Assembly: GCA_009760855.2 (NCBI GenBank) | Contig: WPIO01000119.1 | Location: 48,501 to 112,500 of the forward strand | Direction: 5' to 3' | From: Cristatella mucedo | Taxonomy: Eukaryota; Bryozoa; Phylactolaemata; Cristatellidae | DNA length: 64,000 nucleotides | Part shown: piece after piece, positions 1 through 49,461 of the stretch | How positions within the stretch are numbered: the first letter of the stretch is position 1 | Layout of the letters: each line of letters opens with the position of its first letter | The notes under the pieces: generated by a model | Seen by the model: only the letters and a program-made list of their open reading frames with translations | Told to the model about the DNA's origin: nothing | Database searches by the model: none | Position numbers and translations under genes: made by a program

Positions 1-585
1 CCAGTGCATTTAGGCCAGAAATGGTGTGATGTTGCAACTGCGACGCTCATGACAGAAAAATCTAGCTGCATAGATCTGCACCGGTTGTGAGCACCTGAGT
101 GCACAGGTCGGTGGACCAGCAAGCAGTGAGTTACAGAAGTCATAAAGGGAAGTCACAAATACATGGACCAATTTAGATGTGGTATCCCTGCCTAAACAAG
201 CCCGAATTCCAACACTGTTATGTAGCTGAAAGTAGGCGGACTTGACTGTGGAGCTGATGTGGGTGTCTAATGAAAGGTCACATTGGAGCATAATACCTAG
301 ATTGCAATCAGATTCAACAGAACTATGCTATTAGAGCCGATTTTTAGTGTTAGCCTGCCCAGTTTCTGAATCATACTTTGTTTTCCCATAATTGGTAAGT
401 TGGTTTTATCGTCATTCAATTTAAAAAAGTTTGCTGCCTTCTATGTGTGGATGCTTTATTCAGAAAGGGAGTTAAGAAAATACTTTTTGTGCTGGGGCTG
501 AGAGGGATCAAAGCAAAATTATAACTGAATGTCATTTGCACAGAAGTGAATGTCTGGATTGTGCTCGGCAATCACATCGGCAGCA
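1..585 (-). mobile_element. L2A LINE fragment, cut by window edge
   Basis: It aligns along its length with the copies at 19,196-20,196 and 24,452-25,770. On the minus strand it encodes pieces of the C-terminal part of an L2-type reverse transcriptase protein (LSLDTHISSTVKSAYFQLH; FVTSLYDFCNSLLAG). The frame is broken and the copy is 5'-truncated at about 585. Its 3' end lies outside the window. Confidence 0.8.
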
Positions 586-1837
586 GTACATTCACACCTT
601 CCTCTAAGTACAATCAGAGACTCGTTAAAATTGGATAATTTAATTCCCATACAGAAATAGCAAATTAATTTAACCCCAATGGCACAGCAATACGCAATTA
701 ATTCATCATTAAGCGCAGCTTTGATTCATTTAAGGAAGTAGTGAGTTACGTTGAATTGGGGTTTTCATGTGAGTGAGATATGACCCAACCCGCGCAGCTT
801 TCGATCGGCAGTTTTCAAATGCAGAAAAATGACAGAAATTGGCCCTGGAACTGATTGAAAAGAAAGTTGTCTTTTATTAGAAGCCAATCGAAAAATATGT
901 ATTTTTATATATACCAGTGCTGCACCTTCCTTTCTGCAGTCAATATAAACTGACTTTATGACGTACCGCCTATCAGATCGCCATGCGCGGCTCAATGCCT
1001 AGCCTGTAACTGGCTACTTCTTGGTCCCGCCGAAGCGCAGCCCAAGCGGATGTTGATGAAAAGTATTGTGAGCCAAGCTTTGAAAGACTGCCTGCTGTCG
1101 TTCACTACAGCATTGTCCAATCACTGTACGGCCGCAGTACGTGCACGAAAGGTCAGCAATATGCAGATGGAGCAACTCGTCGCGTGACTTGCATCTCTCC
1201 GCAATTCCGTACTGCAGGATCTCTGCGAATTGCTTTGTGGCCTTCAGTCGCGGTTGCAATAAGAGTATTAATTATCTACTATAAATACGTGAAGATCATA
1301 GGCATGGACAGGAAAGAACATTCTTAGCCACTGTGAATATTTGACTCCACATCAAGCTACCACTACTTAGCACGGGTATTGCTCAAACTCGTTTCGTCGC
1401 CTGGATTTTTACGACCAGTTTCGAGCGCGTCATAATAGCTGCATGAAAACGTGAACGCTAAACTGTGGATTAGTTTTGGCTGTTGTTAAGCTTGACTGGG
1501 ACGTCTTTCGATAATACCTTATCAAATCTCAGGACTCGATTGATCGGAGATCAACCTGCCTTACATAGTCATTAATTTCAGCCTACAAAATCTGGCCGAT
1601 AAGGTTTAAATTGGATAGGAATACTTTCTTATACCTTAAGCTATATTTCAGGCTCACCTTTTTCCGAAGAATTTACATACCTTGTGTGCCTAATTTTAAA
1701 TATGCTGGCAATATCTCGAAATCAGTCTGCGCTCAGCCTCTCTTGCCATTGAACGCTAGCCTTGTCAAGTGCTGCCAGTACCCTGGTTATGCTTCTCACT
1801 ATCAACCATCTATTTTGTTTTACCTAGCAACCAAATT
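586..1837. other. Stretch without firm features
   Basis: No repeat or confident gene was seen apart from the candidate minus-strand frame at 1,014-1,259. A short open frame at 1,611-1,916 on the plus strand shows no recognisable motif. Confidence 0.4.
1014..1259 (-). CDS. Possible last exon of an unknown minus-strand gene
   Basis: An 81-codon open frame ends in TAG, with balanced composition and higher G+C than its surroundings. It contains a CTYCGRTVIGQCC segment resembling a small Cys pair motif and ends PLGLRFGGTKK. No ATG opens it, so it would need an upstream splice acceptor, none of which is strong. Family unknown. It could share a transcript with the minus-strand segments at 3.4-4.0 kb, but no phase proof was found. 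Confidence 0.3.
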   Translation of the reverse strand: MQPRLKATKQFAEILQYGIAERCKSRDELLHLHIADLSCTYCGRTVIGQCCSERQQAVFQSLAHNTFHQHPLGLRFGGTKK

Positions 1838-2143
1838 AAAGTCATCCCCGACTTACAAAACTTACGAAACAGACACGGACCCAGAAATCTGTCGTAAGCT
1901 GAATTCTTTTTCGTAAGTCGGGAACTGTAAATGACTTGTTCAGTGTACACACAGTGCTTAGCAGTCAGACGTCGTTTCCTCCCTACTGTTTTCGGGATTT
2001 TCAAATCCAACGACCGGGCGCGGATTTTGAAAGTTTTCGTTAGTAAAATTTTATTTTTGATTCGTTTTGAGTGACTGTGGCTGAGTTCGTATTGGTGGAT
2101 TTTTTATAAGTCGAACCGTCGTAAGTCGTTGGGGCCGACTGTT
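1838..2143. mobile_element. pogo/Tigger-like MITE remnants
   Basis: A short unit at about 1,838-1,933 has imperfect inverted ends built on CCCGACTTAC (left) and GTAAGTCGGG (right), flanked by TA on both sides with CAGT-type termini. A second end at 2,088-2,143 reads, on the minus strand, CAGTCGGCCCCAACGACTT, followed by further GACTTA motifs. TA flanks and CAGT ends are typical of the pogo/Tigger group of Tc1/mariner elements. A small related trace (GGTCGTAAGTCGTAAATG) sits at about 30,987. Confidence 0.45.
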
Positions 2144-2265
2144 ATTTACTGCCAAGTCCAGCGCTGGTGCCAAGACTAGCCTAAATCTCGTATATGCTTA
2201 AATTGAATTGGATCCACATGTAAAAGCTAGGCTTTTCTATGGTTTGAGTCTCAAAATGAAGTGAT

Positions 2266-2442
2266 ATGTTGGGCTCCCAAGAGTTCCTGCGGTGTTTTTT
2301 CAAATTTCAGAATCAACTGACAGTGAATCCGGTTTATATATGCGATGCGATATGCGATACAATAGAGATTCTGGATCTACGACTAAATAGCGTACCTGTG
2401 CAGAAGAAAAAGCAGACTAGCATAAAATGTGCGTTCCAAGAG
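2266..2442 (+). CDS. Exon 1 of SRCR receptor (cytoplasmic N-terminus)
   Basis: ATG at 2266 is the first after an in-frame TGA at 2257-2259, with a purine at -3. The exon ends in phase 0 at CAAGAG|GTATGA. It holds a KKK cluster (PVQKKKQTS). An alternative is an internal exon starting at 2311 after a good acceptor (TTTTTTCAAATTTCAG), also phase 0. In that case the true start lies further upstream and was not found. The following intron is 111 nt. Confidence 0.55.
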
Positions 2443-4350
2443 GTATGACGGCCGATTGAATACTTAGGCAAATCATGACCGTGCACAACCTTTTAAATGC
2501 TCCCAGTGGTATTTTCACATAGATTCTTCAGTTCCATTTAGTTTCTTTCGCAGAGATCGGCAAGAAGAAGTGTGCAAAGGTTGTGCAAGATCTACGGGTC
2601 ATCTATTGGATTTCTGCTGCTTTTGGCTGCAATCGCCCTATTCCTTGGTAAGTAGTTGAATTTTTGTGTACATACCGGTATCGAGGAATGCTGCTGCATT
2701 GTTCGCTTGTTTAAGTATCTCCGTTGCATTGCCCTTGCTCCTTGCGACAGCCTCAACACCGTGCACGACAAGACAGAAACGGATGCACTGAGCACAATGA
2801 GAAGCTGCTATTTCCGAGTATACTCCTTGGTGAGAATAAGCTTTACTGGTGTCTCTGTAATATCCAGGGCTCTGGTTTGGCCCCTAAATGCTTTTTTGAA
2901 TATTCTCGTGTTTACACTATCAGGTAGCTGAGGTGCAGGGGCGAGGCTAAGAGCAAATTCTTGTACACGTCTCGAAGGGAATAAAATAGTCGCACTACAA
3001 TAAACTATTTAAAATAATTCTTTTTCAGTGATAGAAATTTTTTTATAATTTAACGCGACTCAAAAGTAAATTGAATGACCAGTACTCTCTGTGAAGTTTG
3101 TTTTTGTGACCTAGACTTCAACTACATGCTAACATATTTTTGATGAGAAAAATGACACATTTTTGTCCTGTGGCTAAAATACTCTCATAAATAGCCATAC
3201 ATTAATCAAATAAACATGTATTTACTCTGAAGTCATGGAAAAGGGCCACTCATAAGAATTTAGAAATGAGTAAAAATTCTTGATTTGTGGCTATCATGCA
3301 AATTGATTTCTAGAAAAAGCCCCTGAAAAAATATACCACGAAGTAATCGTTAAACTGCCCTTAGTAAACACCTTCCCCGTCTAGTAAAGTGTGGCGAAAG
3401 CACTCACCTTCTGAGCTCCTCCAAATAGTGCTCCATTTTCCCCTTGAATCTTTCAAGATGAGCACGCATCTAAGATATTGACTTTGACCGACATTTCTCA
3501 TCCATTTTGTCATCGGCCTTCGTGTAAGCCTGAATGATCCACTCATAGTTTTCAGCCTTGTAAATACTTAAGCAGCCGGGAGCCACTGTAAAAACTTATC
3601 GGAGCCGCTCTCTCCATCACTGACTAGGTGAATTCATCATGTGACACCGTATGACTTCAGTATCAGTGATCTGAAAAGTCCACCAGCTCTTACCTTTGCT
3701 TCTGACAGCTGTAGGGAGACATCTTGAAGGCATCTGTAAGCTGTTCGCTCACTGTGCAGAGCCGGGGAAAATTCACTGATGGGGCCTATCCATTGTGGAA
3801 AACTATGTCTTGAGGATCTTCCGAGGGTCTACCAGCTGCCACCCACTTGATGTCTTCTTTCAAAGAGAGAGCTCGATTCTCTAGAGCAAGTCCCTTTTGC
3901 GGTAGTGCGTCGTAAAGTTGCGACTGTCCCATTAAAAAAGTAAGCAACAGAACTTCGTGAAACTGCCTCAGAGGCTGACCGCTTAGAAGTTCCCGATGAT
4001 TCCAAAGTCGGCCAACATGCCTCACGGTAACCAGTAATATCAGTAACATTGGCATAGTTCTCTTATAGCGGCACGGAGTGAGCCAAAAGTAGAGAGGGGT
4101 ATACTAAAAAGCGCAATTCACCAGTGTTTCAGGTGATTCATGTAGCCTCTAGCAGACTGGAATAATTTCTGCACAAGAACAGCCCATCTGGCAGACTGAA
4201 CAAGTTCAAAAAATGTGTTGACACTTTCTTTTCTTGGTTACTTTCACGCAGTGATTAGGAAAACACAATTTTTATTGAAGGACAAAAAAGAATTGAATTT
4301 GTCAGCTAAATTTTTAGGACTCTCGTTGAGAATAGTTTGAAATTGTGATA

Positions 4351-4411
<61 letters not shown>

Positions 4412-4470
4412 ATGTGTGTGTGTGTTCGTGTATTTTTGTATGTATGCATGTATGTATATATATTTATATT

Positions 4471-4536
<66 letters not shown>

Positions 4537-5091
4537 CGTGTATGTGCAATTCATTTGCATAGCGCCCTAAGAGAACTTAGTCTTTATTTAGGGGCTCCAC
4601 ATATTCCACGGGGCTCGAGCCCTCTCCACCTAGGTCATTTACGGCAAGCGCCTTAACCACTTGGCCAAACCAGCACGGCATACTGTTTAAAATAAAGAGT
4701 ACATTTTATATTTATCACTTTCCTTTTCAAAAAAGCGAATATTGGAGAATAATTTTCGTTTTCTTAACTTTGAGGCATAAGCCATTGCAAAATTACACTT
4801 ACTACCCTGGAGCAAGTTTTCAGTAACATTTCTTAGTTGTTGGTGTTATGAGCGCCTAGTAGGCTGGCAGAATCGCAGTCTGTAACTAGAAAAGAAAGAT
4901 GCATGCATGCCGGAAGATGGAAATTGTGGATGCTATGTGCATTGGTTGTAGGACATCCCCCGGACGCTTCCCCGAGGACATTCTCCCCCCCCCCCCGGTA
5001 GACCCTTGGACATTTCCCTCCACGGGTAGGACATTTGTCCCCTAAGTTGATGAATGTATAACTAAGAATACAGGTATATATATATATATAT

Positions 5092-5122
<31 letters not shown>

Positions 5123-8100
5123 CATATATACATGATCAAATGAAGTTCACTATCTATTGAAATAAAATAAAATCTACTCAGTATTACTGGACGTTTTGTT
5201 AATTCCATATGACATATTCACTGGTTGGCCTTGCACTACACAGTCCATTTGAGCAGTCTCATGACAAAAACTGTTCTCTGCATAACGCATATTAGTATAT
5301 ATATAAGTATATAAACCCTATAGTCGGAGGTGGGGAATGTCCTACACCAGGGGGGGGAATTCTGGGGGAGGAAATGTTCGTACCCCAGTGCATTTCATTC
5401 CGCGCCCCTTCGGATCTCTAATACCATTTGGCGGCTTGGGTGAGCAACCCGCAAAGAAACTTTTAGAAATTTTTGACTAGCTCTTCCGCTTCTATGCAGT
5501 GCCGACCTAGAGATTACCGTTTCGACCTGCGAACCCCATAGGTGCTAAATTCAGGCACGGCGTTCCCGGTTCTCAAGCATGGATCGCTAAGCCAAGTGGA
5601 AAGTATTTATTGAGCCTTTAGCTCCTCCAATGAGAGCTCGACAGAGCTTGCGAGGGCGACTATGACTCCACCAAGGGGCCACCAGGTCTTAGACTTTAGT
5701 AAATACAATAAATGAGCATCAATTTCTACTCCAGTGACTTATCTGTGTCACAGATTCGAGGCAGTTTTACCATAAGGGCCAACTGCTTGTTTTCGAATGT
5801 TTCTGATTGGGCTAAAAGTGCTTAAAGACAACGCACTTATTCGGTGAGAACGCTTGCTGCATTAAGTTGTAAATTCATAGTTTTAGTACTACTAAATATG
5901 TATGTAAAACTTTTAAACGGGCTCAAAGGAGCATGTGGAGCGACCTGAGAGCCTCGGGCTCTCCCGATCGCGAGACAAGAATTATTTCGTTGTAATGAAT
6001 AAAAAGGCTTCGCGGCGGTGCGCCTTCGGTGAGGAACTAACAGGATTTCCAAACTTGTGCAGGGTTAAACTAGTAAGAGCATTTGACAGGTAAAATAGCA
6101 AAAAACCTGAAGTTAAATATTTCTAGAGGGACGAATACCTGATGTAAAATAAAACCTATGATGCTCACATACTGAAGGAAGAAAGCTCTGCTAGAGTAGC
6201 ATTTAAGGCTTCGAATTTAGTTGAAAACGACTCATCGATGCATCGGCTTGGATGGACAAGTGGATGCTTCCTAATGCAATCCCGCGATTACGACACTTGA
6301 GGTTGACCGCTGCTTTTGAACTGGAGACCCCATGGAAAATAGCCTTTGATCAACAGGCATGTGCGTCATTCAATATTTAATGGTGTGACCAGATGTAATT
6401 CTCATTAGGTATAAGATCTCACCGCTTCTGGCCGCACTGGCTCCCAGTCAAGCAACGCATGGAATTCAAAGTTTTGCCAATCACTTTCAGGACCCTTCAT
6501 TCTTTGGCTCCAGCCTACCTATCACGTCTATTCCCCCCACCAGGATATGCACCGTACCACTGATTTTCGCAATCTGTTTACCTACATTTTGTACTAATCT
6601 GAAATCCCTTGGAGACCGTGCCTGTAGTTAGTATGCTTCCAAAGCCTGGAACTCACTCCCGACTTGCCTCGCGGCATCTCCTGACTTGAACACATTTAAA
6701 AAGAAACTAAAAACGCGTCTCTTTATCACAGAATTTAGTGAGTCCCTGAGATTCGATCTTTATGTGCTTGTACGTGCTGACACTGTGCATGCTGCTACTA
6801 ACCATTCTTGCATGCTGACCCTGTGCCACTAACATTCGATCTTGCTTCCTTTGTAGCAAATGTAAAGTAACTAGAAAGAGATTGAATTCTCTGAGGGCAC
6901 TATATTAAATGTATTATTAGTATTAGTATTACTATTATTATTATTATTACCTTAGCAGTCCGGTGTACAGCATGCGAACCCGACCGAAGCAGCTTCATTT
7001 CCGGCTGCGATCTCTCTGTCGGTTAGTCCCTGCTCTTAGGCTTGGCGATGCTATACGTAAAATCGAACCTGCCTGACGTTTTCCGTCATACCAGCAATGG
7101 CAGACGGGGAAATTATCTGGACTTTCGCAAGTTTGGTGTCATTGATAGTGCAAGTTAAGGCATTTCTGACGCGCACACCTTACCTTTAACAGTTTCAGAC
7201 GTTGTGGCAGTACCTGAATTAGCACGGGTTACGTGGACATAACATAAGTTCTTACATTACTAACACTACCATAAGTGTGGCTCAGATATTGGCTTCGGGA
7301 AAGAATTGTGTTCCCTCTGTGCGATCGGAATAAGCTTCGCTTCTTTTAAGGTGAATTTGAATTATTCTTAATCCTCAGGTAAAGCATGGATTCTCTTGCA
7401 CTCTATTCAGACCCTTTGATATTTTACTAAGAGATGCCTAGAAAATAATAAACAAGTCAAAAGGATACAGACTGTTTGTTATAGATCTATTTTCTAAAAA
7501 CCGCCTGAAGGATAATGACATCTTCATATCGACCTAATACGTTCGCATGTGGTTTATAGAGTCATCTCCGACGGCATATCGTTGAAACCGCCATCTCTTT
7601 TTGCAAGCGCTACTCGGCTTTACAAACGAAGATGCTCGCTGTATTGACAAAGTTGCCTCCTCTGATCACATCCTGTGGTTGTCTACCATTTTATTGATTG
7701 CTATTAAAATTATCTTGCCTCAAGCGGGAAACTATCCCACAAATATTTCGTTTTCGGTTCCATGCTCTAATCCATTGAGCTACTGACACTAGTAGACTCG
7801 TCTCCACCGTATATCATTGTGGTAGTGCCCTTATCGTTGCAAGGTCCCGGCAAGGCCACGAAGAAGCAAAAGTATCTTCTGAATGAATCCCCTAAAACAC
7901 GATGGGGACGAAGTAAATGTATACTATTAGCCTAGCTTATAAGTACGTATAGCTCATTGGCTGGCGAAATCAATTATCAGAATCATTAGAAAATCAAGTA
8001 AGCAGAACTTCCTAAAGACTGCATTGATACCCTAAAGTTAACTTTCATCTCAGTCGGGTTCATCCGAGTACTTTCCCTAAACATGCTGAGAAGGAAAGCT

Positions 8101-11100
8101 AATGCAGGATATTGGGCGGCTGTTATATGTTAAATAGTACAGTTTTATTATGCTTGCAAAGGTATGCAGTATCTTATACAGGACCAGGCACTGTGTGCAC
8201 CAGTGCATTTTTGAGCACAAACAACGGAATTAGACCTAGTCACTTGCCGATGCGGATTGATTTGTGCATTCTAAAGTAGACCTCTTAATGCAGGATATCT
8301 TTCTGTTTGGTTGCCAAGCAAAAGTCGTTGGCTTATTGACAGGATGCGTAGGTCTCTAATAGAATATGCCTCTTGGTAGGAAATTGTATTAGCAAACTAC
8401 GCGAAATTTCTCATGAGCTAAGAACTGACATGCAACCCCATTTTATGCTGCTGTGCAATAAGTAAGCTCCTCCGCCATACTGTTTCTGGTCTGTTTACAG
8501 TTTTCTATCCATGGCTAAAAAGAATAAAGATGGAAGAGTCAGCCGTTGCCCAAATGTGTCAGTGCAATCCAGCCAGTGATATGGCGGTTTCTGAGGAAAG
8601 CAAGCTTGAAGAAGAAGGAGAAGGATGCCTTGAAGTGTCCTTCAAATGTCACTGGCAGTTGCTACGTAAGGATTCTTCTTTTGAATTTCACAATTCAACC
8701 TTCTGCCATTGCAGTTAACCTGTGACTTTTATGGCCAAGAAGATACGTGAAGATACAAGGCAAAAGTCCCACGCAAATATCTGCTTATTAGCGGCACACG
8801 TTTGGAGTGATGTACTTTGATTGAATTTTCTGTTCACACGTTGTTTACTTGCAATGGAATCATTTTGGAGTCTTGTTTAATCGGTATGCTCAAACTTGTG
8901 TTGCTTCCAAGTCTGGGCAGTTCTGTAGGGCACACTACTTGTTTGCAGCTAAAAAGAAGCTCATAGGCTTATCTATGCATAAGCAGAGATTTAGCTACCG
9001 TCATCTCTAATGCACGCTTCCATGCGCTGCAAGCATGCTCTCAGAGGTGGAGCCAAAGTAGTTCATTGTGGCGCTGAGAAAGATGGAGGGAATAGGGTCG
9101 TCATTAGCTGAGACCCTAATCATTTGAAGTGAATGTATGCGATGGCATGTCCCAGATGCGAGCTAAAGGCTTTCCATGAACTCGAACTGTTGGCCCAATC
9201 ACCAAACGATTTCCATTAGTGCAATGAACTGGTAAGCGAATGGATGCTATTGAGAGATGAGGGTAGAGCAACAACAGCAAAGTGAAGGAGTGCGAAGAGG
9301 TCAAATCGGTTGGCTGGTACAAGCATGTAAGCCAGATATAAGCCAGAGTGGTTATTAAAGTCGGTTTGACACCTAAGAGAAAGCCCTTTAATCCCAGTTG
9401 GAAGTTGAGTTGTGTGACAGCTACTCTAGTGAAGACAGGCTCAGCCACCGCCGCTGCTTCTGCGCTTTGCTTTGCACTGGTTGCTGATTGCTGGTTGCTG
9501 ACAAGCACACGCTAACCTGCATAATGAGGATTGCGGCGGTTGTGGTATCAGCGAAGCACTGCAGATGCTTAAGCTAACGTAGCCGTCTTACTCTTATCTG
9601 AACAGGCCTGATTGTGCCAATGTTTCTTCACTGAACGCTGGCCGACTTGATAGCTGATGTAATGTGCTCATCCAATGACAGTTCTTTTTGGAACGGTACG
9701 CTTAGAGTTTGCTCTTCTTGTCGTAATCAATTCAGCTGAGCTTCCGATAGCCCGGAGCACTAGTGGCGCTAGTTAATTCGTTTCTTTTGACGTCAGAATA
9801 TAAGCCGCGACAGGGCTGCCCTGGCTGCTTAGCGGCGGCAAAAAGACAGTGCAGTGCTCGCTATTAAGCCATCTCTGCTCACTTGGTGAATTATCCCTGC
9901 AGTGGTGTAAGACAAGTGTAAAATGCTCGGCAGCATCGTGCAAGCTCTGAAAACGAGCCAATACGCAGCCCGCGACACCGCTGAGCTGAAGAATTTAATA
10001 CACGCCCTAGCTTAGCTCAGTCGAAATTGTTCTAATCTGGAAACTGACCCACGTGAACGAAGTGACTAGACTGGCGTCTAACCAGTATATATACTGAACC
10101 CATCATTGGAACTACATTTGAACTCAACTTGTGTCATCATCATGTGTATGTGTTTCTGTCTGTAACACCGTAAAGCCACAAGGACTAGGTAGGTTTTATG
10201 CCAAAACTCAAAGACTCTAAGACCGTTCGGCCTACGGGGCTCGTATGGTAGCCAACAGACTCAGTATCATGCTACACTGAAAGCGTGGATAGCGTAGCTG
10301 AGTCACGAGGGTAGTCGAGGAAGTGAATAGCATGGAAGTATCAAGTCCAGTTGACCGGGTAAATATGCCACCTTCGACAGCCGGAGTGGTGTCATTGCGT
10401 AATAATTTTGGAAGCGAGTGAATTGAATGAAAACAACAAAAAATGCATTACATAAGAATTAATAATTCATAACATAATAACATAACATAACTAAATACAT
10501 AACATCCTGAGAACTTAATGTTTCTCACACACTTTGTATCTTCCTGCTAGATAATCCATGTCCAGGGGTTTGTTACAATGCACTGTATCAAGAAGCAAAC
10601 GCAAACAGGTTGGGCTAGCATGCTAAAGCCAACATTAAGACAATTGTGTGTACCGGTTATCTAGACTTCTGGCGAGTACCTTTCACTGAATCATATACAT
10701 GTAAGCAAACTGGATTCTGCAGACCAATAGCTTCTGCCAGTAGCAGACAGAAGCTTTTCTTAGCTCTTCAAGCTGCCTGCAATTTTAAACGCGGAAAGAA
10801 TTTTGTATTAGTCCTTAATCGCGCCTGCTTACCTTTAGCTTGATAAATTACCAAAGTGCAAAGCCCAGCTTTTATATAAGCCGCCATGCTTTGCTTTCTA
10901 CATACGCCGTCACATTTAACTTTTGCTATACGCTGCCTTAGTTTTCTTTCCTGCTCTAAATTACTTTTAGACGGTGCAGTCACACTCCGTCTGATTAAAG
11001 GTAAAGATCCCAGTCAGGGGCTCATTCAAGTATTGCACGCCGGAGTGTGCTACATGGTATGCGACGAGGCTCTCGGAGCTAAAATCGCAGTGTTGGCCTG

Positions 11101-14100
11101 CAGACAGATGGGCTACGAGTGAGTATCCGATACAGAACGTCCAAGTTGAGCTCAGCATGCTTTAAAAAATAACAATTTTGAAAACATAATTAGGTCTCAA
11201 ACTAGCTGCAATTGATAATTTTGATTCTTTCATTAGCACTGGAAACTTTGTCGCACCTTTTGAAGTAGCCGGACCTACCACTTCTTGGAACTCAAGCTGC
11301 AACTTTCGCAAACTTTCCACGACCTGCGTTTATTCTACTAAAGACCACACCGGTTGTCAGCATGCTGCTTGGAAAATATCTAGCGGATGTAAAACTAAAA
11401 ATCATACTGCCCTAAGCTGTAAGAATCAATCGACGTCTAATACGAACTCTAATTTGACCTTAAGCAGAACACAATCATCAAATGTCGTGACAAAAGATAC
11501 TTCTGTTTTCGATCAGCATCTGACGGTCGCATCTGACGTCCACCAGGAAGCTGCGATGGCGATGAACTCACTTCACAGACCAGAAGAGGCGTTGTCCAAT
11601 CGGCATTCAACAAAAGGCATTAGCATTTATATGACCCCAACCTTTTTCTCTTTTATCACTGCAACCAGGACGACGAAGATCACGGAACTCTCTCCCATAC
11701 CATCGACAGCAACCGAGCCCACGCTGCCATTGCGGGAATCCTGGGTAGTTATGCAGGGAGCTCCTACCGCGGACACGCGCCGAACAAATACCAGTGCCTC
11801 ACCATGCCTGTATTCAGCCAAGCCACCCGCTCGTGTAAAGGCGGAATCCTACATTCACCATACGTCATTACCAACTAAGCAGGATTTTACCAACACAACG
11901 GGAGCTTCAATAGGAATACGTGTTCCCTTGACTGCTTCAATGGGTCAGATAAGTAAAGAGATCTCAACATTGTCATTAAAATTGGCAGCTATGCAAGTGA
12001 TTGGCGGCACAACCAGAGATGCTTCAATCGCGTGGCAAGAGACTCAAACTCGTCGACCTGCTGAAGCGGCAGTCGACTCTTCAGCTTTGACCAAAGTATC
12101 TGTATCGACATCTTCTAATCAAGAAATCGCTGCAGGCTTAACTTCTTCTTTGCAGAATTCAGTTGCATTGGTCACTGGACGGATTACAGGAACTTATCCT
12201 TCATCTGCAGCAACTAGATTGATGCCTGTTGAGGCAACTCAACCCATCCAATCTCCTACCCTACTTCTGAGCGCAGTAAATATACTTTTTTCCGAAGGAA
12301 GTACTGGAGCCTCAATTCGGGCTCAAAAACCAGCGACTGTGTCGATTCTCAATGAATCAAAGGTGGACAGCTCAGTCTCATCCCCTTTGTCGAATTTGAC
12401 TTCGTTTCCTGTCGTTACGATCCAAGCCCCAAATATTTCACGTCTGCCTTTAATCATGCCTCTCAAAGCTCTTGACCTCATTGCTGCGAATGACTCGTCG
12501 ATGCCATCAAGTCCCACACAGGAGACTTCAGTGGCTGCTTCAGGACAGACATCCTCAGTGCTGCTTAATGAGACGCTGAAAAATCTGGCGACAGAGCCAA
12601 AGAACCACGCCAGGTCTACCAAACCGATTAATGACATCATGCTTAGAATGAAGACCACTATGCTGGCGCCGGCTGCCACGTCGACACCTCTACGTCACTC
12701 TAGTAATTTGCAGAGTGTGTACGCTTTTTATTGAGAACAGAGCCGCAATCTTTCCACAGGTGCTGCAAACTTGAGATTACTGAAAAGTAATTTGAGCTTT
12801 ATTTGACCTCTTAAGAAGTTCTTAATTAATATCCGCGATTTATACCATGTAAATTCGCCTCCCTTACTTAAATGCAAGCCTGAGGCTCCGTCGCTTATAA
12901 ACTTGATTCAAGGGAATAAATATTTGCAGTTATAATACTAAGACTAGGTTAAACTTAAAAAAACTGTTTACCCATAGCTTTTTGGATCTTCAATAAAAGG
13001 CTAATGAAAGAGCTCATCTTTTTATTTTTCATAAGATTATATGAATTTTCGCGTTCTATTGATAAACCTTTCTAACTATGACACCCAGTGTGCCATCGGG
13101 ATATAGCCCTTGCTATTGGTTTTTGTATCAGTTTAAGCTTCCCCATAATCCGAAGCGAGGTGCTCACGTAGGACTATGAAAAAGGCTGCAAGAAGTTGAC
13201 TAGACAAGAATATTATCGATTAGCTGCATATCTTCAGTATAAGCCTACATTCTTGCATTGCATTTTATTTAATTCTGCTTACATGTGATTGCTTGCCTCT
13301 TAAAAAACCGCAGTAATTGTACTCCACTTTATTTATCAGTTGCATTCCCACCATATGGTGGCCACATTAGGAAACCATGAAACAAAGACGTCCTCGATAT
13401 AGTTATGAAAACCTGAAATTATTCTCGAACCATTCCAGCGTGTTCAGATACTGAGACCGGAGCATCAACGCTGGCTAGACGAAGGCCTCTCTCCCATAAG
13501 TCAGTAGCAGCATTAGGCAGCGCATTAGATCGTTGTGAAAGACACATGTCTCGGTTTATAGCCATCCGTCGGGCTAGCTTGGTAGGAGAGGCTTGCTTTG
13601 CCCTTGAGTTTTTTGGTGCATATATGTGGAAATGCATTCGCCAATCGTGGTCAATTATGTTGCAGGCCCCCAGCTTCAGCTGAGAGCTGTCAGAGGTCAT
13701 AGCATAAAACTCCTGGAAGTATTCTACAATGGTGCTTGGGATCTCATATGCAAGAGAGGTTTACGAAGTGAGGACAGAGCGGTAATTCTTCGGCAACTGA
13801 GTTCAAGGTAGGCAGCCACGTGACTACTTTCCTTTCTTATATTGAACCTCGAATCGCTTCTGATCGAGTGCGAAAGCAGCAGCCTAAATATACAGTTAGC
13901 GTATGGAGCGCTTGCAGCAAGCACGAAGGCACGAAGTCATGGCAAATCGGTTCTAGACGTTACTCGCTGACATAGAGCTACCAAGAATAAACGAGGATGC
14001 ACGAGATTAGAAATGACAAAAAGCGGGAAATCGCAGAGTGCAGCGCCCCGAAATGTTGACCCCTGAGCTTTTTCACCAACTCTGGGCTAGAGACTGCTCA

Positions 14101-15293
14101 TAAAATATTCACAATGAGCAGACTTGTGAGCAGCAATATGTATTCATTCACGCAAACCGATTCAAGTAAGATTTCCGTCTTGGCCGGCATATGAGTATGT
14201 TGTGGCAGTAAGCAATCTCTCTCTTTTTCTCTCTTCCTGGTGAGCCGTAATGGCTCACTAGGTAAGGCGATTGCTTTTCACGATCTCGGCTCCGAGGTCG
14301 TGGGTTCAAATCCTGCGGGCGGGGATCGATCCTGTATCGCCACTGCAAGCATTAGTGATAGCCACAAACGCTCTTCTGTCGCTATACAAAAAGATGCTGT
14401 TAAATCAGCTAGCACTTTCCTAACAAAGGTCTAAAGGTTTATCTGGTGCAAAGCTGTAGCGAATCTGGCAGTAGTTAGCTTTCGTACCAGTTACAATATA
14501 CAGGCAATTATGTATGCTTAGAGATTTCGTTTTTATTAATAACATCGTTTGATAAAAGTGATTTGCCCCGTTTTTTATGTTTGTGTGTGTGTGCGTGTTG
14601 TATGCGGTGGTATGGGTGTGTGTGCGTAAGTTTGTGAGCCAGGTCAGCTCTTTAAACAAACATGTGTCTGCTGCCTGAACTATTGAGGTCTACTCAGAAA
14701 TAGCAGTGGTGTTCTTTCTGAAGGCCTCGTGTTTGCATGAAACTTTACATACCTAAGTTTATTTATCTTATGGAAATACTTATCATATGGAAATCCATGG
14801 ATTATGGAAATTATGGAAATAGAAATCATTTTTTAAATCTGTCGAAAAGCTTAGCTTTTCTTCACAAAGGCATCGTGTGACTACAAATAATCAGAAATAT
14901 TCTGCATGGCCTCAGCACTAAACTCAGTAATTAGATAAACCAAGTCAGTATGAATAGGCAGTGAGAGTCATTGTAAAAGACAAGCGCTGTGAAAAACAAT
15001 GCAGCATTGAAGCACACGATCAGCTACATCGCTCCGCTTATGTCTGCGTGACTGAGCGGAGCCCGTTGCTAGCCGCTGCATTTCTATCTTTTAGGTGCCA
15101 GTTTTTATCCGATGAAGCACTCGAAAACGATGGGGGAGTAGGCGATTTTCAGGCTAACGAAGGCCAGCATGTCTGGCTTTCAAACATGAGCTGCACTGGT
15201 GATGAGCCAAGTCTGTTAGACTGTCGTCAACGCGGTTGGTCTTTTGCAGATGACTGCACGTTCGATGAGAGTGTTTTAATGACTTGTTCGTGA
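2266..15293 (+). CDS. Type II transmembrane SRCR-mucin-SRCR receptor (7-exon gene model)
   Basis: Model: join 2266-2442, 2554-2647, 8501-8665, 10971-11118, 11237-12714, 13666-13807, 15095-15293. The exons total 2,403 nt, giving 800 residues plus stop, and every junction is phase-compatible (0, 1, 1, 2, 1, 2) with GT-AG ends. Order of parts: cytoplasmic N-terminus rich in K/R; membrane segment around residues 75-91 (GFLLLLAAIALFLV) with basic residues before it, so type II by the positive-inside rule; acidic linker; first SRCR-like domain; Ser/Thr/Ala-rich stalk; second SRCR domain with the typical CTGDEPSLLDC motif. SRCR domains are secreted or cell-surface binding modules. The layout recalls MARCO/SCARA receptors, which are type II with a terminal SRCR, but with a mucin-like instead of a collagen stalk. 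A role in binding microbes or debris is inference. The start at 2266 is the least certain part. Confidence 0.82.
2554..2647 (+). CDS. Exon 2 of SRCR receptor (signal-anchor)
   Basis: The acceptor is TTTCTTTCGCAG and the donor TTG|GTAAGT. The exon starts in phase 0 and ends in phase 1. It encodes a basic run (RSARRSVQRLCKIYG) followed directly by a hydrophobic stretch of about 16 residues (IGFLLLLAAIALFL), the classic layout of a type II signal-anchor. A 5.85 kb intron full of repeats follows. Confidence 0.8.
3408..3556 (-). pseudogene. Coding-like segment with internal stop, BAR helix-like
   Basis: On the minus strand the frame reads AENYEWIIQAYTKADDKMDE, then a TAG stop at 3470-3472, then MRAHLERFKGKMEHYLEELR, ending at a perfect donor (CAGAAG|GTGAGT). 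The pattern resembles the third helix of sorting-nexin BAR domains (LKADWERWKQNM type), from memory of the family. The stop in the middle suggests a pseudogene. The acceptor-like CAATATCTTAG before the second half would leave too little room for an intron. It lies antisense in intron 2 of the SRCR gene. Confidence 0.35.
3694..3785 (-). CDS. Candidate minus-strand exon, unknown protein
   Basis: An open segment between AATGGATAG and the strong donor GCAAAG|GTAAGA encodes PISEFSPALHSERTAYRC and CLQDVSLQLSEAK, which looks like an amphipathic helix. It probably goes with the neighbouring segments at 3,408-3,556 and 3,833-3,962. The family is not certain. Confidence 0.35.
3833..3962 (-). CDS. Candidate minus-strand exon, helical (BAR-like)
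   Basis: An open segment runs from CTGAGGCAG to CAGCTG|GTAGAC and encodes FHEVLLLTFLMGQSQLYDAL and LENRALSLKEDI. The heptad-like spacing resembles helix 2 of sorting-nexin BAR domains. Its donor is only 46 nt from the next candidate exon, and the helix order is unusual for a BAR protein, so rearrangement or decay is likely. Confidence 0.3.
4349..4525. repeat. (TA)n / (TG)n compound microsatellite
   Basis: TA runs at about 4,358-4,396 and 4,470-4,485 alternate with TG-rich runs at about 4,397-4,425 and 4,486-4,527. Open frames across it (poly-Tyr/Ile, poly-Cys/Val) are artefacts. Confidence 0.95.
4546..4676 (-). mobile_element. SINE2 (tRNA head, L2A-type tail)
   Basis: On the minus strand: a tRNA-like head with A box (TTGGCCAAGTGGTTAAGGCG) and B box (GGGCTCGAGCCC), then a tail with AGTTCTCTTAGGGCGCTATG. 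It is abutted by the microsatellite at its 3' end. Confidence 0.8.
4943..5392. mobile_element. C-rich inverted repeat, possible MITE
   Basis: The left arm (4,943-5,043) repeats GGACATTYCCC-type motifs with a C12 run. The right arm (5,328-5,392) carries the same motifs inverted (GGGGAATGTCC, GGGGGGGG, GGAAATGTTCG). The outer ends read TGCATTGG and CCAGTGCA. The centre holds TA and TTTA microsatellite. No target duplication was found. A hairpin-type non-autonomous transposon is inferred. Confidence 0.4.
5074..5129. repeat. (TA)n-(TTTA)n microsatellite
   Basis: TATATA is followed by about ten TTTA units and a short TATA end. Confidence 0.9.
5396..6404. other. Intronic stretch, nothing recognised
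   Basis: This is part of the large SRCR intron. A 71-codon minus-strand frame (5,837-6,052) has no motif. Confidence 0.4.
6405..6955 (+). mobile_element. L2A LINE, 5'-truncated, diverged
   Basis: It starts within the segment for HWLPVKQR (CACTGGCTCCCAGTCAAGCA), carries the end of the reverse transcriptase protein with many changes, the 3' UTR and the tail (AGAGATTGAATTCTCTGAGG), and ends in an ATT repeat. Confidence 0.85.
6956..8500. other. Intronic stretch, nothing recognised
   Basis: This is SRCR intron 2 up to the acceptor of exon 3. There are no repeats and no motif-bearing frames. Confidence 0.4.
8501..8665 (+). CDS. Exon 3 of SRCR receptor (juxtamembrane linker)
   Basis: The exon starts after CTGTTTACAG with two bases that complete the Val codon split by the previous intron. 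It ends in phase 1 at GCTAC|GTAAGG, 165 nt in all. It encodes FYPWLKRIK, then several Cys residues (CQC) and an acidic run (EESKLEEEGEG). This should be the first extracellular segment. No known domain was recognised. Confidence 0.75.
9590..9745 (-). mobile_element. Old degraded L2-type LINE fragment
   Basis: The block GCTGATGTAATGTGCTCATC plus CAATGACAGTTCTTTTTGGA matches, with many changes, the L2A block encoding LSLDDHISST (minus strand). The 130-codon frame before it (9,116-9,508) could not be linked to it. Confidence 0.45.
10135..10422 (-). mobile_element. L2B LINE 3' fragment
   Basis: It aligns with the 3' UTR and last codons of the L2B copies at 33.4 and 38.3 kb (GGTAGCCAACAGACT; GTAGTCGAGGAAGTGAATAG). 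It is diverged and 5'-truncated, and lies in SRCR intron 3. Confidence 0.7.
10971..11118 (+). CDS. Exon 4 of SRCR receptor (first half of SRCR domain 1)
   Basis: The acceptor follows a pyrimidine tract (TTACTTTTAG). The exon ends in phase 2 at CTACGA|GTGAGT. It carries the SRCR signature pattern: VTLRLIKG, then IQVLHAGVCYMVCDE (family form: VEV-hydrophobic-NG-W-TVCDD), then VLACRQMGYE (family form: VVCRQLGY). The usual Trp before TVC is replaced and an extra Cys sits in GVC. The next intron is 118 nt. Confidence 0.82.
11237..12714 (+). CDS. Exon 5 of SRCR receptor (end of SRCR 1 plus mucin-like stalk)
   Basis: The exon starts after CTTTCATTAG with one base completing an Asp codon. The first 65 residues are Cys-rich (SSC, TTC, TGC, SGC, LSC) and sit where the second half of an SRCR domain should be, but the match to the family is weak. 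The rest, about 420 residues, is open, rich in Ser, Thr, Ala and Pro, and lacks Cys almost entirely, as in an O-glycosylated stalk. The donor A|GTGTGT at 12715 is chosen because it gives the phase needed by exon 6. If it is not used, the frame ends at a TGA at 12732 and would give a shorter isoform with one SRCR-like domain. Confidence 0.78.
13666..13807 (+). CDS. Exon 6 of SRCR receptor (first half of SRCR domain 2)
   Basis: The acceptor is ATTATGTTGCAG and the donor TCAAG|GTAGGC. The peptide follows the SRCR pattern closely: LQLRAVRG, LLEVFYNGAWDLIC, then EDRAVILRQL. The Cys expected in the family motif VVCRQLG is a Leu here. A Cys appears six residues later, at the start of exon 7. Confidence 0.8.
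14240..14412 (+). mobile_element. SINE1 (tRNA-derived)
   Basis: GTGAGCCGTAATGGCTCACT is followed by a B box (GGGTTCAAATCC), then the tail AGCC...CGCTATACAAAA and a final AAATCAGCTAG. It sits in SRCR intron 6, sense orientation. Confidence 0.85.
14579..14632. repeat. Degenerate TG-rich microsatellite
   Basis: TGTGTGTG runs are broken by CG and GGTGGTATGG. Confidence 0.7.
15095..15293 (+). CDS. Exon 7 of SRCR receptor (second half of SRCR domain 2, C-terminus)
   Basis: The acceptor is TTTCTATCTTTTAG, with one base completing an Arg codon. It encodes VWLSNMSCTGDEPSLLDC, RGW, DDC and a final VLMTC, matching the conserved second half of SRCR domains. The stop TGA directly follows CS, so the protein ends with the domain. 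Confidence 0.85.
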
Positions 15294-15587
15294 TAGAAGA
15301 ACCGAAGGGGTCTCTGAGTATGACTGGTGATTGATGGCGTCCGCCCACTCTCTATTAGCTGTATAGACACTCTGTATTAGTGGGGTCTGTAAGTATGGCT
15401 TGATGGAGAGCCCTAGAGGCGGAAGTATGCACATTGTACTAGAAATCCAGTCATTGGACTTGCCATCATTTTAACCTCTCGTCGTCGTTGTCGGAGAAGG
15501 TCTCGAGTGACGTCCAATCAGTTAAACCGCATATAAAATAATCTAACAGCATACGGTCGATGAACCTCAACTTCTCTTCTAAATAAT

Positions 15588-15593
15588 AATAAA
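15588..15593 (+). promoter_or_regulatory. Candidate poly(A) signal of SRCR receptor
   Basis: AATAAA lies 295 nt after the stop codon, the first perfect hexamer downstream. Position and sequence are the only support. Confidence 0.4.
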
Positions 15594-15979
15594 TCACATT
15601 TTAGAAAGCTTTTCTATTCTTTTAGCTATTAATGCAAGCTCTTTTAGTCTTGTCCATTTATCGAGTACATAATCTTTTTTTATTCATAGTAAGCATCGTT
15701 GTACTATGCTATCGGGCGCAAATTATACCTTGTCGATGTACCGTTTGCCTATTTCTGTTTATCATTAAATACATTTTCCACAAATAATTAGGCTCCGATT
15801 TATTTAACAGCATTCTCAGCCGTTATAGAGTTTCGCGTGCCCGCCCAACCATGTGCGGCCCTGTCACAAACGAACGACGGTTATTGTAGTATCAATCCGA
15901 GTAGTGTAACAATAGGGAAATTGCAGAGAATACATGACGTTAAGTAGCTTTCCATTTTTGAAAGCAAGCATAACATTCT

Positions 15980-16180
15980 TTTTTACAAAAGTGCTGCTCA
16001 GCTTCCACGTCTGGACAGAACTAGGCCGGAAACACTGCCCTGGTAACGGAGCCAGTCTCAGCCAACACGCTAAGTATACTGGTGAGGGCTGAACATTGTG
16101 GCACGGATAGTGACTCGTAAGTGCAGCACCAATAAACGCTGATATGCCGACAGTATCCGGAACATGGTAGCGACGAGATG
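15980..16180 (+). mobile_element. Short solo-like LTR with primer-binding-like site
   Basis: It matches the minus-strand block at 39,863-40,041 over about 180 bp (shared GACAGAACTAGGCCG, GGAGCCAGTCTCA, CGACAGTA, CCGG). It contains AATAAA. It is followed at 16,163 by TGGTAGCGACGAG, which looks like a tRNA-primed binding site of the kind seen next to Ty3/gypsy (Mag-type) LTRs. Downstream sequence has a possible short gag-like piece (RLRDLELALAHM) but no intact frame. Confidence 0.5.
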
Positions 16181-16836
16181 CCCTCGTGCCTTAGCATAGT
16201 AAGTCAGTATTCATGATGTAGATAAGTCTATTCGACAGCAACGGAGGGTTAACGGAATTCAACGGCGGCCACGACGTGCATCAACGGCTACGCGACCTAG
16301 AGCTCGCGTTAGCTCATATGCCAATACCAAACTCGGAACCATAAGTCAGCCTATCTCATGGCGTCGCCGAGTATGCAGACGCGGCCGTAGATTATCGAAT
16401 AATATAATTCGAACCTGCCATCAGGCTAATATAAATATGCAAAAGCAGCAAGTAAAGTTAAGCAGGAAAACACAAGTAACACAAGTTCACTTAGACTAAG
16501 GGAAAGCTGAGACAGGCATACGCGTCATTAGCTGATCCTGAACCGATGCCGGGTCATTGCAGGTAGTAAACGAATGAGGAAGTGGATTACAGACTTTTGG
16601 TGGATTTGAATGGAAGTTCCGACCACCAAAAGATTTTAGTTTAGTGCAAGACGCGGCGTGGCGACTAGGTACTGAGGAGAGGGTTACGCAAGAGCGAGAA
16701 ATGGAGGAGCCATGCGGTCAGACATTTTGGCTGGCGCAAGCGAGCGAAACAACCTGCATGCCTGACACGGAGTATTGAAATAAATTTGACGCTCTGTAGG
16801 AAGCGAGTGAAGTTCAGGCGAGGTGCGGCGTGGCAG
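16181..16836. other. Stretch without firm features
   Basis: It may hold the decayed interior of the LTR element. No domain was seen. Confidence 0.3.
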
Positions 16837-18231: not shown

Positions 18232-18400
18232 GTGAGCCGTGATGGCACACTAGGTAAGGCGGTTGCTTTCACGACCTCGGTCCCGAGGTCGTGGGTTCGA
18301 TTCCTGCGGTGGGCGATTCTTTATCACCACTGCAAGCGGTGGTAATAGCCCTAAAAGGCTCTTCTATCGCTATACAAAAAGAGGCTGTTTAATCAGCTAG
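18232..18400 (+). mobile_element. SINE1
   Basis: A full-length copy: GTGAGCCGTGATGGCACACT head, B box GGGTTCGATTCC, tail CGCTATACAAAA, end AATCAGCTAG. Confidence 0.9.
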
Positions 18401-19195: not shown

Positions 19196-20196
19196 TAATA
19201 ATAATAATATTGCACTTGATAAAGCGCCCTCAGAGAACTTAATCTCTTTCTAGGCGCTTTACATTTGCTGCAAAGTGATACGCAATAGAATAGTAAGTAA
19301 AATCATGCTTGAAAAACAAACAAAATGAATAACATGGTTAGGGGTTACATGCACTGGGTCAGCATGCAAATGTGGTTAGTGGCAGCATGAACAGTGTCAG
19401 CACGCATAAGCACATCGAGGACGAATCACAAGGACCCACTAAATGCTGTCCTAAATAGGTATGTTTTTAAGTTTCTTTTAAATGTGGTCAGGTCAGGGGA
19501 TGTTCTGATGCAGGTCGGGAGGGAGTTCCAGGCTGTGGGAGCATACGAGCTAAATGCACGGTCTCCAAAGGATTTAAGGTTTGTACGAGGTATTTCTAGA
19601 CTGTTGGATTCCGAAAAGCGAGTGGTACGATGCTTTGCCTGATGGGGTAGTATATCTGAAAGATAGGCTGGAGCCATAGAATGAAGAGACCTAAAAGTGA
19701 GCGACAAAACCTTGAAGTCAATCCGTTGCTTGACTGGTAACCAGTGCAGGTCGGCGAGAAGTGGAGTAATGTGGCAACTGCGACGCTCACGACAGACAAG
19801 CCTAGCTGCAGAGTTTTGCACCAGCTGCAATCGCCTGATCGCACATGCTGTTAGGCCAGTAAGCAGTGAGTTGCAGAAGTCGAGACGAGATGTCACGAAT
19901 GCATGGACCAACTTGGACGTGGTATCCTTATCTAAACAAGCCCTAATTTTAGCAATGTTATGAAGCTGAAAATAGGCTGATTTGACTGTGGAGCTGATGT
20001 GGTCGTCTAACGAGAGGTCGCTTTGGAATATGACACCTAGATTTCGAGCTGATGCAACTAAAGATATGCTGGCAGAGCCAATTTTGAAAGTCGGCCTTTC
20101 CAATTTCTGAATAACACTAGGTTTGCCCATAACTAGTAAGTTAGTTTTATCATCGTTTAGTTTTAGAAAATTTGCTGCCATCCATGATCGGATATA
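19196..20196 (-). mobile_element. L2A LINE, 5'-truncated copy with long open frame
   Basis: A 3' end with ATT repeat and tail hairpin, a 3' UTR, then an open frame (minus strand, 19,426 to about 20,196) for the end of the LINE protein: WMAANFLKLNDDKTNLLVMG, LDFCNSLLTG, HWLPVKQR, LKTYLFRTAFSGSL. In L2/CR1/Jockey proteins this segment follows the YADD catalytic motif of reverse transcriptase, which is absent here. The intact frame marks it as fairly young. The 5' truncation at about 20,196 joins another L2A copy. Confidence 0.9.
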
Positions 20197-21040
20197 CATG
20201 GTTGGGGTGACATGCACAGGATCAGCATGCAAGTGTGGTTAGTGGCTGCATGCACAGTGTCAGCACGCATAAACACATGAAGGACGAATCACAGGGACCC
20301 ACTAAATTCTATTCTAAATAGGTGTGTTTTTAAGTTCTTTTTAAATTTGGTCAGGTCAGGGGATGTTCTGACCAAAGTCGGGAGTGAGTTCCAGGCTTTG
20401 GGAGCATACGAACTAAAGGCACGGTCTCCAAAAGATGTGAGGTTTTTTTACCAGGTATAGGTAAACAATTAGATTCAGAAAAGCGGGTGGTACGTTTCTT
20501 AGCCTGGTGAGGGTAGATCTGATAGCTAGGCTGGAGACAAAAAATGAAGGGAACCTGATAGTGAGTGACAAAACCTTGAAGTAGATCTATTGCATGAGTG
20601 GTAGCCAGTGCAGGTCGGCGAGACATGGTGTGATGTTGCAACTACGAAGCTCACTACAGACAAGCTTTGGTGCAGAGTTTTGCACCAGCTGCAAACGCCT
20701 GAGTGCGCAGGGTGGTGGACAGCAAGCAGTGAGTTACAGAAGTCAAAACCGGATGTCACAAATGCTTTGACCAACTAGATGTGGTATCCCTGTCTAAACA
20801 AGCTCGAATTTTAGCAGTTTTATGTAGCTTAAAGTAGGCAGACTTGACTGTGGAGCTGATGTGGTCGTCCAATGAAAGGTCACTTTGGAACATGACACCT
20901 AGATTTCGTGCAGATTCAACAGGCGATATTCTGGCAGAGCCGATTTTGAGCGTCAGCCTTTTCAATTTCTGAATTACGCTTGTTCGCCCATAACTAGGAA
21001 GTTAGTTTTACCGTTATCAAATTTAAGAGATTCAGAAAAC
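20197..21040 (-). mobile_element. L2A LINE, second copy, joined to the first
   Basis: It has the same family 3' UTR and C-terminal coding block, with more frame breaks. Its own tail hairpin and ATT repeat are missing, because the neighbouring copy starts within its 3' UTR. Confidence 0.85.
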
Positions 21041-24451: not shown

Positions 24452-25770
24452 ATAATAATAATAACGCACTTGATAAAGCGCCCTCAGAGAACTCAATCTC
24501 TTCCTAGGTGCTTTACATTTGCTGCAAGGGGAAACGCGATTGAATCGTGAGTAATATCATGCTTGATAAACAAACAAAATTAATAACATGGTTAGGGGTG
24601 ACATGCACAGGGTCAGCATGCAAACGTGGTTACTGGCAGCATGCGCAGTGTCAGCACACATAAGCACATGAAGGACGAATCACTGGGAGCCACTAAATGC
24701 TGTCCTAGATAGTTGTGTTTTTAAGTTCTTTTTAAATTTTGTCAAGTCAAGGGATGTTCTGACGCAAGTCGGGAGGGAGTTTCACGCTTTGGGAGCATAC
24801 GGACTAAATGCACGGTCTCCAAAGGATTTGAAGTTTGTACAAGGTAGTGGTAAACTGTTGGATTCCGAAAAGCGGGTGGTACGATACTTGGCCTGGTGGG
24901 GAGTAGATCTGAGAAATAGGCTGGAGCCAAAGAATGAACTTTGAAGTCGATCCGTTGCTTGACCGGTAGCCAGTGCAGGTTGGCGAGAAATGGTGTGATG
25001 TGGCAACTGCGACGTTCACGACAGACAAGCCTAGCTGCAGAGTTTTGCACAAGCAGTTATCGCCTGATTGCACGCCGGTAGACCAGTGAGCAGCGAGGTA
25101 CAGAAATCAAGTCGGAATGTCACAAATGCATAAACGAATTTTGACTGTGGAGCTGATGTGGTCGTCTAACGAGAGGTCACTGTAGAATATGAAACCTGGT
25201 TTTTCAGCTGATTCAACAGGAGATATGCTGGCAGAGCCAATTTTGAGCGTCAGCCTTTCCACTTTCTGAATCACACTGGGTTTGCCCATAACTAGCAAGT
25301 TAGCTTTATCATCGTTTAATTTAAGAAAATTTGCTGCCATCCATACGCGGATGTCATCAATATATGCAGCGAGTGAGTTGAGAGAAATCAGGGAGCTCGA
25401 AGGCTGGGAGGGATCAAAGCAAAGGTACAACTGAGTGTCATCCGCATAGAAGTGAAAGCCTAGATTGTGCTTGGCAATCACATGAACAAGAGAGAGAGCA
25501 TAAACCCTGAAAAGAGCCGGACCTAGCACGGAGGTACCTCAGATGATCTTTGTTCCTTCACGTCAATACTCTGGAGTCTCCCACTGAGATAGGACCTGAA
25601 CCACTGCAGAGCAGTGCCAGTGATGCCCAGGCAAGATGAGAGGCGCTCTAGAAGAAATTTGTGATCGATAGTATCACAAGCTGCCGAAAGATCGAGCAAA
25701 ACAAGCCGAGACACTCTACCTATGTCTGCATTCCTTAGTAGGTCGTTGTACACCTAAAGCAATGGTTAGG
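24452..25770 (-). mobile_element. L2A LINE, longest copy, with reverse transcriptase motifs
   Basis: This is the only L2A copy reaching the reverse transcriptase core. From the 3' side: ATT repeat, tail hairpin, 3' UTR, C-terminal block, FHFYADDTQLYLCF (catalytic motif C, YADD) and, further upstream, VLLDLSAACDTIDH (motif A with its catalytic Asp, where the family usually has AAFD). Frameshifts separate the pieces (frames at 25,107-25,529 and 25,523-25,753) and part of the C-terminal block is deleted near 24,940. The copy is not active. Confidence 0.9.
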
Positions 25771-42325: not shown

Positions 42326-42498
42326 TCTAAATAAATGTATATGCAATTTATTTAACAGCACTACAAGAACTCAATTTCGAAGGCATGCTAATGCATACGC
42401 TCTCTAAGTACAGGTATACATGTATAAGATTTTACCGAGAATCTACGACAGACGAAGATATGCAACCGGTTGAGAAACTGGTCCTGCAAACTAAGCAG

Positions 42499-49416: not shown

Positions 49417-49461
49417 TATTTTTTATTGGCTACTTGTTGCTATGGGCGATCAGGCTGCACT

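Follow-up and report, generated by a model that had tools for sequence, protein, structure and literature searches.

The stretch of DNA analysed here (the window; 64,000 nucleotides, positions 48501-112500 of contig C21 in a genome of 572,011,866 bases and 688 contigs) carries a gene whose predicted product is a membrane receptor with two SRCR domains on either side of a long Ser/Thr-rich stalk. Seven exons on the forward strand (2266-2442, 2554-2647, 8501-8665, 10971-11118, 11237-12714, 13666-13807, and 15095-15293) share one continuous reading frame; all six introns are bounded by GT and AG, with phases 0, 1, 1, 2, 1, and 2, and the product of 800 amino acids closes at a TGA (15291-15293). 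An earlier reading made from the letters alone (the sequence-only reading) had proposed seven exons with the correct phase at each junction, and our recomputation agrees for 6 of 6 introns. Of that exon model as a whole, the chain and frame stand, while the start codon, exon 3, the donor of exon 5, and the codon usage of exons 1-3 hold less firmly. Splice-site scores throughout use weights entered by hand.

We searched the joined protein against Pfam and found the SRCR family (PF00530) in two stretches, at 77.1 bits against a cut-off of 26.1 (E 1.4e-21), which upholds the two SRCR domains previously read from the sequence; the further matches, SRCR_2 and FTO_NTD, were below threshold. A search of the PDB returned 22 distinct sequences at E up to 1, with M130/CD163 first and MSR1, MARCO, SCARA5, DMBT1, and neurotrypsin also among them. 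Pfam and alignment place the first half of SRCR1 in exon 4 (10971-11118, phase 1 to 2), the first half of SRCR2 in exon 6 (13666-13807, phase 1 to 2), and the second half of SRCR2 with the stop codon in exon 7 (15095-15293, followed by an AATAAA at 15588), and cysteine spacing places the second half of SRCR1 in the first part of exon 5 (11237-11420), up to the Cys at residue 256. Alignment with two SRCRs from related arrays in the same genome, described below, identified all six canonical cysteines of SRCR1 (176, 189, 225, 235, 246, and 256), with the spacing C5-x9-C6-x10-C7-x9-C8 of the SRCR in the C21 array. Two extra cysteines, 172 before C2 and 216 between C3 and C5, recall the extra pair of group B SRCRs, in a domain that has two exons. 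SRCR2 has six cysteines, one of them displaced: Leu stands at the canonical C3 (AVILRQL), and a Cys at 736 is instead the sole spare partner for C8. Compared with group A (six cysteines, more than one exon), the gene has the two exons per domain, with eight cysteines in SRCR1 and six, one displaced, in SRCR2; it departs from group B (eight cysteines, one exon) in that a phase-2 intron splits both domains. The window protein and the last SRCR frame of the C21 array both end one residue past the last Cys.

The strongest hydrophobic run in the protein covers residues 74-96 and is preceded by basic residues (RSARRSVQRLCK) and followed by KRIK; after residue 110, the highest 19-residue hydropathy mean is 1.51, within SRCR1. 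Most of the run is encoded by exon 2 (2554-2647, phase 0 to 1), a signal-anchor exon that a scan for transmembrane and splice features picks out and that resembles exons in the arrays. Exon 3 (8501-8665, 165 nt, phase 1-1) encodes the end of the run, the KRIK, and an acidic, Cys-containing spacer. A strict scan of window positions 1-10970 for transmembrane exons with good splice sites returned exon 2 alone, plus a weaker acceptor variant of it at 2542, and 209.6 kb of control strand sequence gave none at the strict threshold and five at a loose threshold in any phase. Such an exon is rare by chance, with the reservation that the thresholds of the transmembrane and Ser/Thr/Pro scans and the motif of the VNPxY scan described below were chosen after examples had been seen. 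The type II topology claimed earlier holds as a prediction from hydropathy, flanking charge, and the transmembrane exon, and on the same grounds the protein is predicted to share with class A scavenger receptors a cytoplasmic N terminus and one transmembrane segment.

Ahead of the anchor lies a putative cytoplasmic-tail exon (2311-2442) that ends in phase 0 and contains a VNPxY motif, with NPVY at 2326-2337. It was identified by alignment with a tail exon on contig C47 (VNPVYICDAICDTIEILDL against VNPAYDAD---DSIELVDS; score 51, reached by 0 of 2000 shuffles); the corresponding counts for tail exons on C415 and C337 were 5 and 45 of 2000. An NPxY arose by chance in 383 of 200,000 shuffles of exon 1. 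The LDL receptor carries the similar uptake signal FDNPVY, and by motif alone the NPxY of the tail may be of the uptake type. The 5' end of exon 1 in the sequence-only reading (2266-2310) begins at the first in-frame ATG and may be intron. Copies in the arrays on C337, C415, and C289 (at 2907) read MVVNPAY where the window reads LTVNPVY, so the start of the window gene must lie elsewhere, at the ATG at 2266 or in an exon upstream of an acceptor at 2310.

The gene has relatives in the same genome. A genome-wide profile search with PF00530 gave 82 matches among 113 scored candidates. With the joined protein as query, 37 candidates were scored and 20 of them matched at E up to 0.01. Seven of these matches are the gene itself; the other 13 all fall on contigs with SRCR arrays (five on C289, three on C47, two on C337, and one each on C359, C415, and C21 at 3311). 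The first 8.2 kb of contig C21 hold such an array, which shares the strand of the window gene and lies about 43 kb upstream of it. Similar units, on short contigs or contig ends, were noted at C21:1-8200, C47:1-28600, C289, C337, C359, C415, and C284, and their distribution over several contigs suggests either one large tandem array broken in the assembly or haplotigs. Like the window gene, the arrays on C47, C337, C289, C359, C415, and C21:1-8200 keep the SRCR halves in separate exons and continue with Ser/Thr/Pro-rich sequence after some second halves; unlike it, they have more SRCR halves each, short linkers, and no exon 3 counterpart that we could find, and at the level of half-domains identity is only 30-47%. 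Most array SRCR exons show less nonsynonymous than synonymous divergence (dN < dS; for C21 and C289a, 0.01 versus 0.19 and 0.05 versus 0.45), in a comparison that excludes the exon A rows with C289b, where the alignment is displaced by one codon; exon B of C289a and C289b differs by no synonymous and five nonsynonymous changes.

The arrays also share the 5' end of the gene. Transmembrane exons running from phase 0 to phase 1 precede the SRCRs on C337 (4883-4982, summed score 11.5) and on the reverse strand of C47 (28082-28205, 6.2), as in the window gene, and upstream of each lies a short exon with VNPAY that ends in phase 0; a counterpart on C289 is weaker, with a putative tail exon at 34621 that reads MIGNRAYRVDAEDL. 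Scanning the collected loci for VNPxY-type motifs, with L002, L003, L007, and L029-L042 left out and the motif modelled on the known examples, we obtained six hits: C415:28626, C47:28521, C337:4658, C289:2916, C289:34630 (NRAY), and window 2326 (NPVY). A scan of the 9.7 kb upstream of an SRCR gene on C442 for both kinds of exon found no transmembrane or NPxY exon, and on C289:10001-20000 it produced transmembrane-like candidates with sums up to 9.8 (h 2.15), so that false positives do occur. As none of the 2000 shuffles matched the score of window exon 1 against the tail exon of C47, the predicted type II anchor looks common to the local family. The sequence-only reading had found no family to match the order of domains, a claim that calls for revision: the same 5' kit of NPxY exon and signal-anchor exon precedes the SRCR arrays on C47 and C337, and less clearly on C289, and the Ser/Thr/Pro-rich continuation recurs there. 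From its layout, the window gene seems to be a member of this tandem family with two SRCRs and a long stalk.

The predicted stalk shares an exon with the second half of SRCR1 (11421-12714; identified by composition). Its 429 residues (260-688) contain 28% Ser plus Thr, 7% Pro, and eight N-glycosylation sequons, and a search of them for internal repeats found none. Among the 117 open reading frames of at least 90 amino acids in the window, two reach a Ser plus Thr fraction of 0.282 and three a Ser plus Thr plus Pro fraction of 0.350; the whole frame of exon 5, itself among the 117, has 0.272 and 0.333. The description of the stalk as mucin-like therefore needs qualifying, in that its composition is Ser/Thr-rich and apparently not classically mucin. 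An open frame of 514 codons, as in exon 5, has a chance of about 2e-12 per start position at the stop frequency of the window. Of 27 exons for second SRCR halves, counted after overlapping loci L002, L003, and L007 had been dropped, 12, including exon 5, read on for at least 40 amino acids with a Ser plus Thr plus Pro fraction of at least 0.32 over the first 60; the 12 include L044-L046, which had been fetched as promising by frame and place, and several others that are copies of one unit. The longest other run-on among the second halves examined is 134 amino acids. The stalk is best read as an extreme case of the way linkers tend to be built in this genome.

Several known receptors share parts of this layout. 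CD5, CD6, and DMBT1 combine SRCRs with mucin-like sequence and are secreted or type I proteins with group B SRCRs. TMPRSS2 and its kin are type II serine proteases with an anchor and an SRCR; the window protein differs from them in that Pfam finds no protease domain. The class A receptors (SR-A/MSR1, MARCO, and SCARA5), according to PMC4491621, have a cytoplasmic N terminus, a transmembrane segment, and a terminal SRCR spread over several exons; this layout and the rule applied above, which links SRCR groups to exon number, are both taken from that paper. Class A also includes an alpha-helical domain between the transmembrane segment and the collagen, and the members with an SRCR have a single one. 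The window protein differs from class A in its Ser/Thr-rich stalk, its extra or displaced cysteines, its lack of any collagen match in Pfam at E up to 1, and its two SRCRs, only one of them terminal. PMC4491621 agrees with the contrast drawn earlier with MARCO, which has collagen and a single terminal SRCR. SSc5D, as described in PMC5061727, also joins SRCRs to mucin-like sequence, and differs from the window protein in being soluble with the mucin-like part C-terminal; the same paper reports that SRCR proteins bind bacteria. According to PMC10855680, SRCRs have expanded in sponge, in sea urchin, and elsewhere, and their cysteine patterns vary. In the open-licence literature, judged by titles and the starts of abstracts, we found no description of a type II SRCR family with NPxY or mucin-like sequence, which is a weak absence.

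We conclude that this is probably an animal gene, present as a single copy, whose product is a type II membrane glycoprotein of the local tandem SRCR family and would act as a scavenging, pattern-recognising endocytic receptor. The computed exon chain, domains, tail homology, and family layout give the order of its parts; from this order, the protein would run from an NPxY cytoplasmic tail through a signal-anchor helix, a short Cys-containing spacer, and SRCR1 to a long, putatively glycosylated stalk and a C-terminal SRCR2. The stalk would hold the terminal SRCR2 at a distance from the membrane; the ligands of the SRCR domains may be polyanionic or of microbial origin, and uptake may follow from the recruitment of PTB adaptors and clathrin by the NPxY tail. 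It is plausible, as suggested earlier, that the gene codes for a lineage-specific receptor with an immune or adhesive role. In the COX1 gene of contig C688, the best reading, judged at conserved COX1 positions, takes AGA/AGG for Ser, AAA for Lys, ATA for Met, and TGA for Trp; this is the invertebrate mitochondrial code and makes a protostome likely. If our reading is true, type II scavenger receptors that lack a collagen stalk arose separately in a protostome, with an uptake motif like that of the LDL receptor built into a tandem SRCR array; a MARCO-like layout would then have been reached in a second way, and the roles of stalk and tail could readily be tested. An apparently orphan domain order would also be explainable by neighbouring genes. 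The gene is ordinary-looking yet coherent, and its interest lies in the type II NPxY kit common to a tandem family.

A number of observations weigh against this interpretation, beginning with the 5' exons. The acceptor at 2310 (TTTTTCAAATTTCAG|AATCAA; score 3.9, with 67 of 4426 AGs scoring at least as high) coincides with a codon boundary; the exon may thus begin at 2311, in which case the first 15 residues belong to an intron. For exon 3, two in-phase (1-1) candidates in its interval exceed the threshold, and the exon of the model is the better one; its symmetry means that it could be optional, and a search of C337, C47, and C289 for a counterpart found none. Among the relatives, the putative tail exon at C289:34621 (MIGNRAY) fails to align with exon 1 (201 of 2000 shuffles reach its score), and the transmembrane exon at C289:34887-34989 scores 7.6, with 11.3 for another choice of acceptor and phase. 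The three array transmembrane exons were picked by hand from 23 candidates in six array stretches at a looser threshold, with the one on C47 at just 6.2; the other 20 include variants of the three, SRCR exons, and low-complexity stretches. The VNPAY copies at C289:2907 and C415:28617 are broken, with a stop within the tail exon of the first and no intact transmembrane frame after either, and are likely pseudogene copies. In SRCR2, the loss of the canonical C3 could compromise the fold.

Codon usage raises the question of whether the 5' exons belong to the gene at all. Exons 1-3 score -0.123, -0.075, and -0.005, where chance open stretches have means between -0.002 and 0.017 (standard deviations 0.13-0.16), and so gain no advantage from it; exons 1 and 2 rest on homology and position instead. 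The test is a weak one, its training set consisting partly of exons 4-7, and exon 6 (0.062) is also beaten by another frame (0.084). Were exons 1-3 foreign, exons 4-7 would encode a secreted SRCR protein with an unseen signal-peptide exon. We consider this very improbable, because the tail and transmembrane exons recur in the family and because no phase-1, signal-peptide-like first exon that could replace the anchor was found at a donor score of at least 2 between C21:8201 and window 10970, an interval of 51.3 kb. Lowering the donor score to at least 0 gave two window candidates, both within a simple repeat.

The remaining doubts concern the splice sites around SRCR1 and the stalk. The acceptor of exon 4 is weak (top 13.9%), as is the donor of exon 5 at 12714, which ranks in the top 13.2% of 3500 GTs. 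A frame left unspliced at this donor closes at a TGA at 12732, with AATAAA at 12915 and 12992, marking a possible early 3' end (12732-12997), and the gene might then encode a type II protein that has a single SRCR and ends in Ser/Thr-rich sequence, the SRCR2 exons belonging to another transcript. The phase-1 junction and the phase-2 intron within SRCR2 match those of SRCR1, and by our own estimate an AATAAA arises by chance about every 2 kb; the interval 12701-16200 contains five, of which one falls in a model intron. We regard such an early end as improbable.

A more serious competitor to the 12714 donor is a same-phase site at 11418 (T|GTAAGA, 11419-11424), which scores 0.7 against -0.2 and is the best phase-1 donor in exon 5. 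It falls in the codon of the last SRCR1 cysteine, exactly at the end of the domain, and splicing from it to 13666 retains the Cys (TGC) and removes the stalk. The main product could accordingly join SRCR1 straight to SRCR2, with the Ser/Thr-rich frame found only in a minor form, and several other SRCR second halves indeed have only a short open tail. Against this, the frame stays open for 447 codons past SRCR1 (chance about 6e-11 per start), so that it is probably kept open by use, and a Ser/Thr/Pro-rich continuation recurs in the genome; we judge a mainly stalk-less product unlikely, if less so than an early end. In a more speculative extension of our preferred reading of a stalked receptor, which we put forward only tentatively, a protostome has a tandem family of SRCR receptors that are type II, carry NPxY tails, and differ from class A scavenger receptors, and the window gene is a two-headed member of it. 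Its two same-phase exon 5 donors (11418 and 12714) would let it switch between two products, one a compact SRCR1-SRCR2 protein and the other carrying a long glycosylated stalk, and a disulfide in SRCR2 would be rewired.

Elsewhere in the window, scans for tRNA (ARAGORN, with bacterial settings) and for Rfam families gave nothing. Pfam searches of nine further open reading frames, made apart from any smaller exons in 16-64 kb, gave only a reverse transcriptase match below the cut-off (RVT_1, in the open reading frame at 25110-25538) and weaker matches at chance level. Repeat fragments with reverse-transcriptase-like protein, common to many loci, lie at 19429-20238, 42495-43028, 47479-48081, and other positions. 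Short dispersed repeats that also occur at other loci lie at 14242-14430, 18232-18390, and 49417-49620; they look like tRNA-derived short interspersed elements, and ARAGORN finds no tRNA in them. Outside the mitochondrial contig, COX1 matches at C166:4375626-4376390 and on C83 are probably nuclear copies of mitochondrial DNA.

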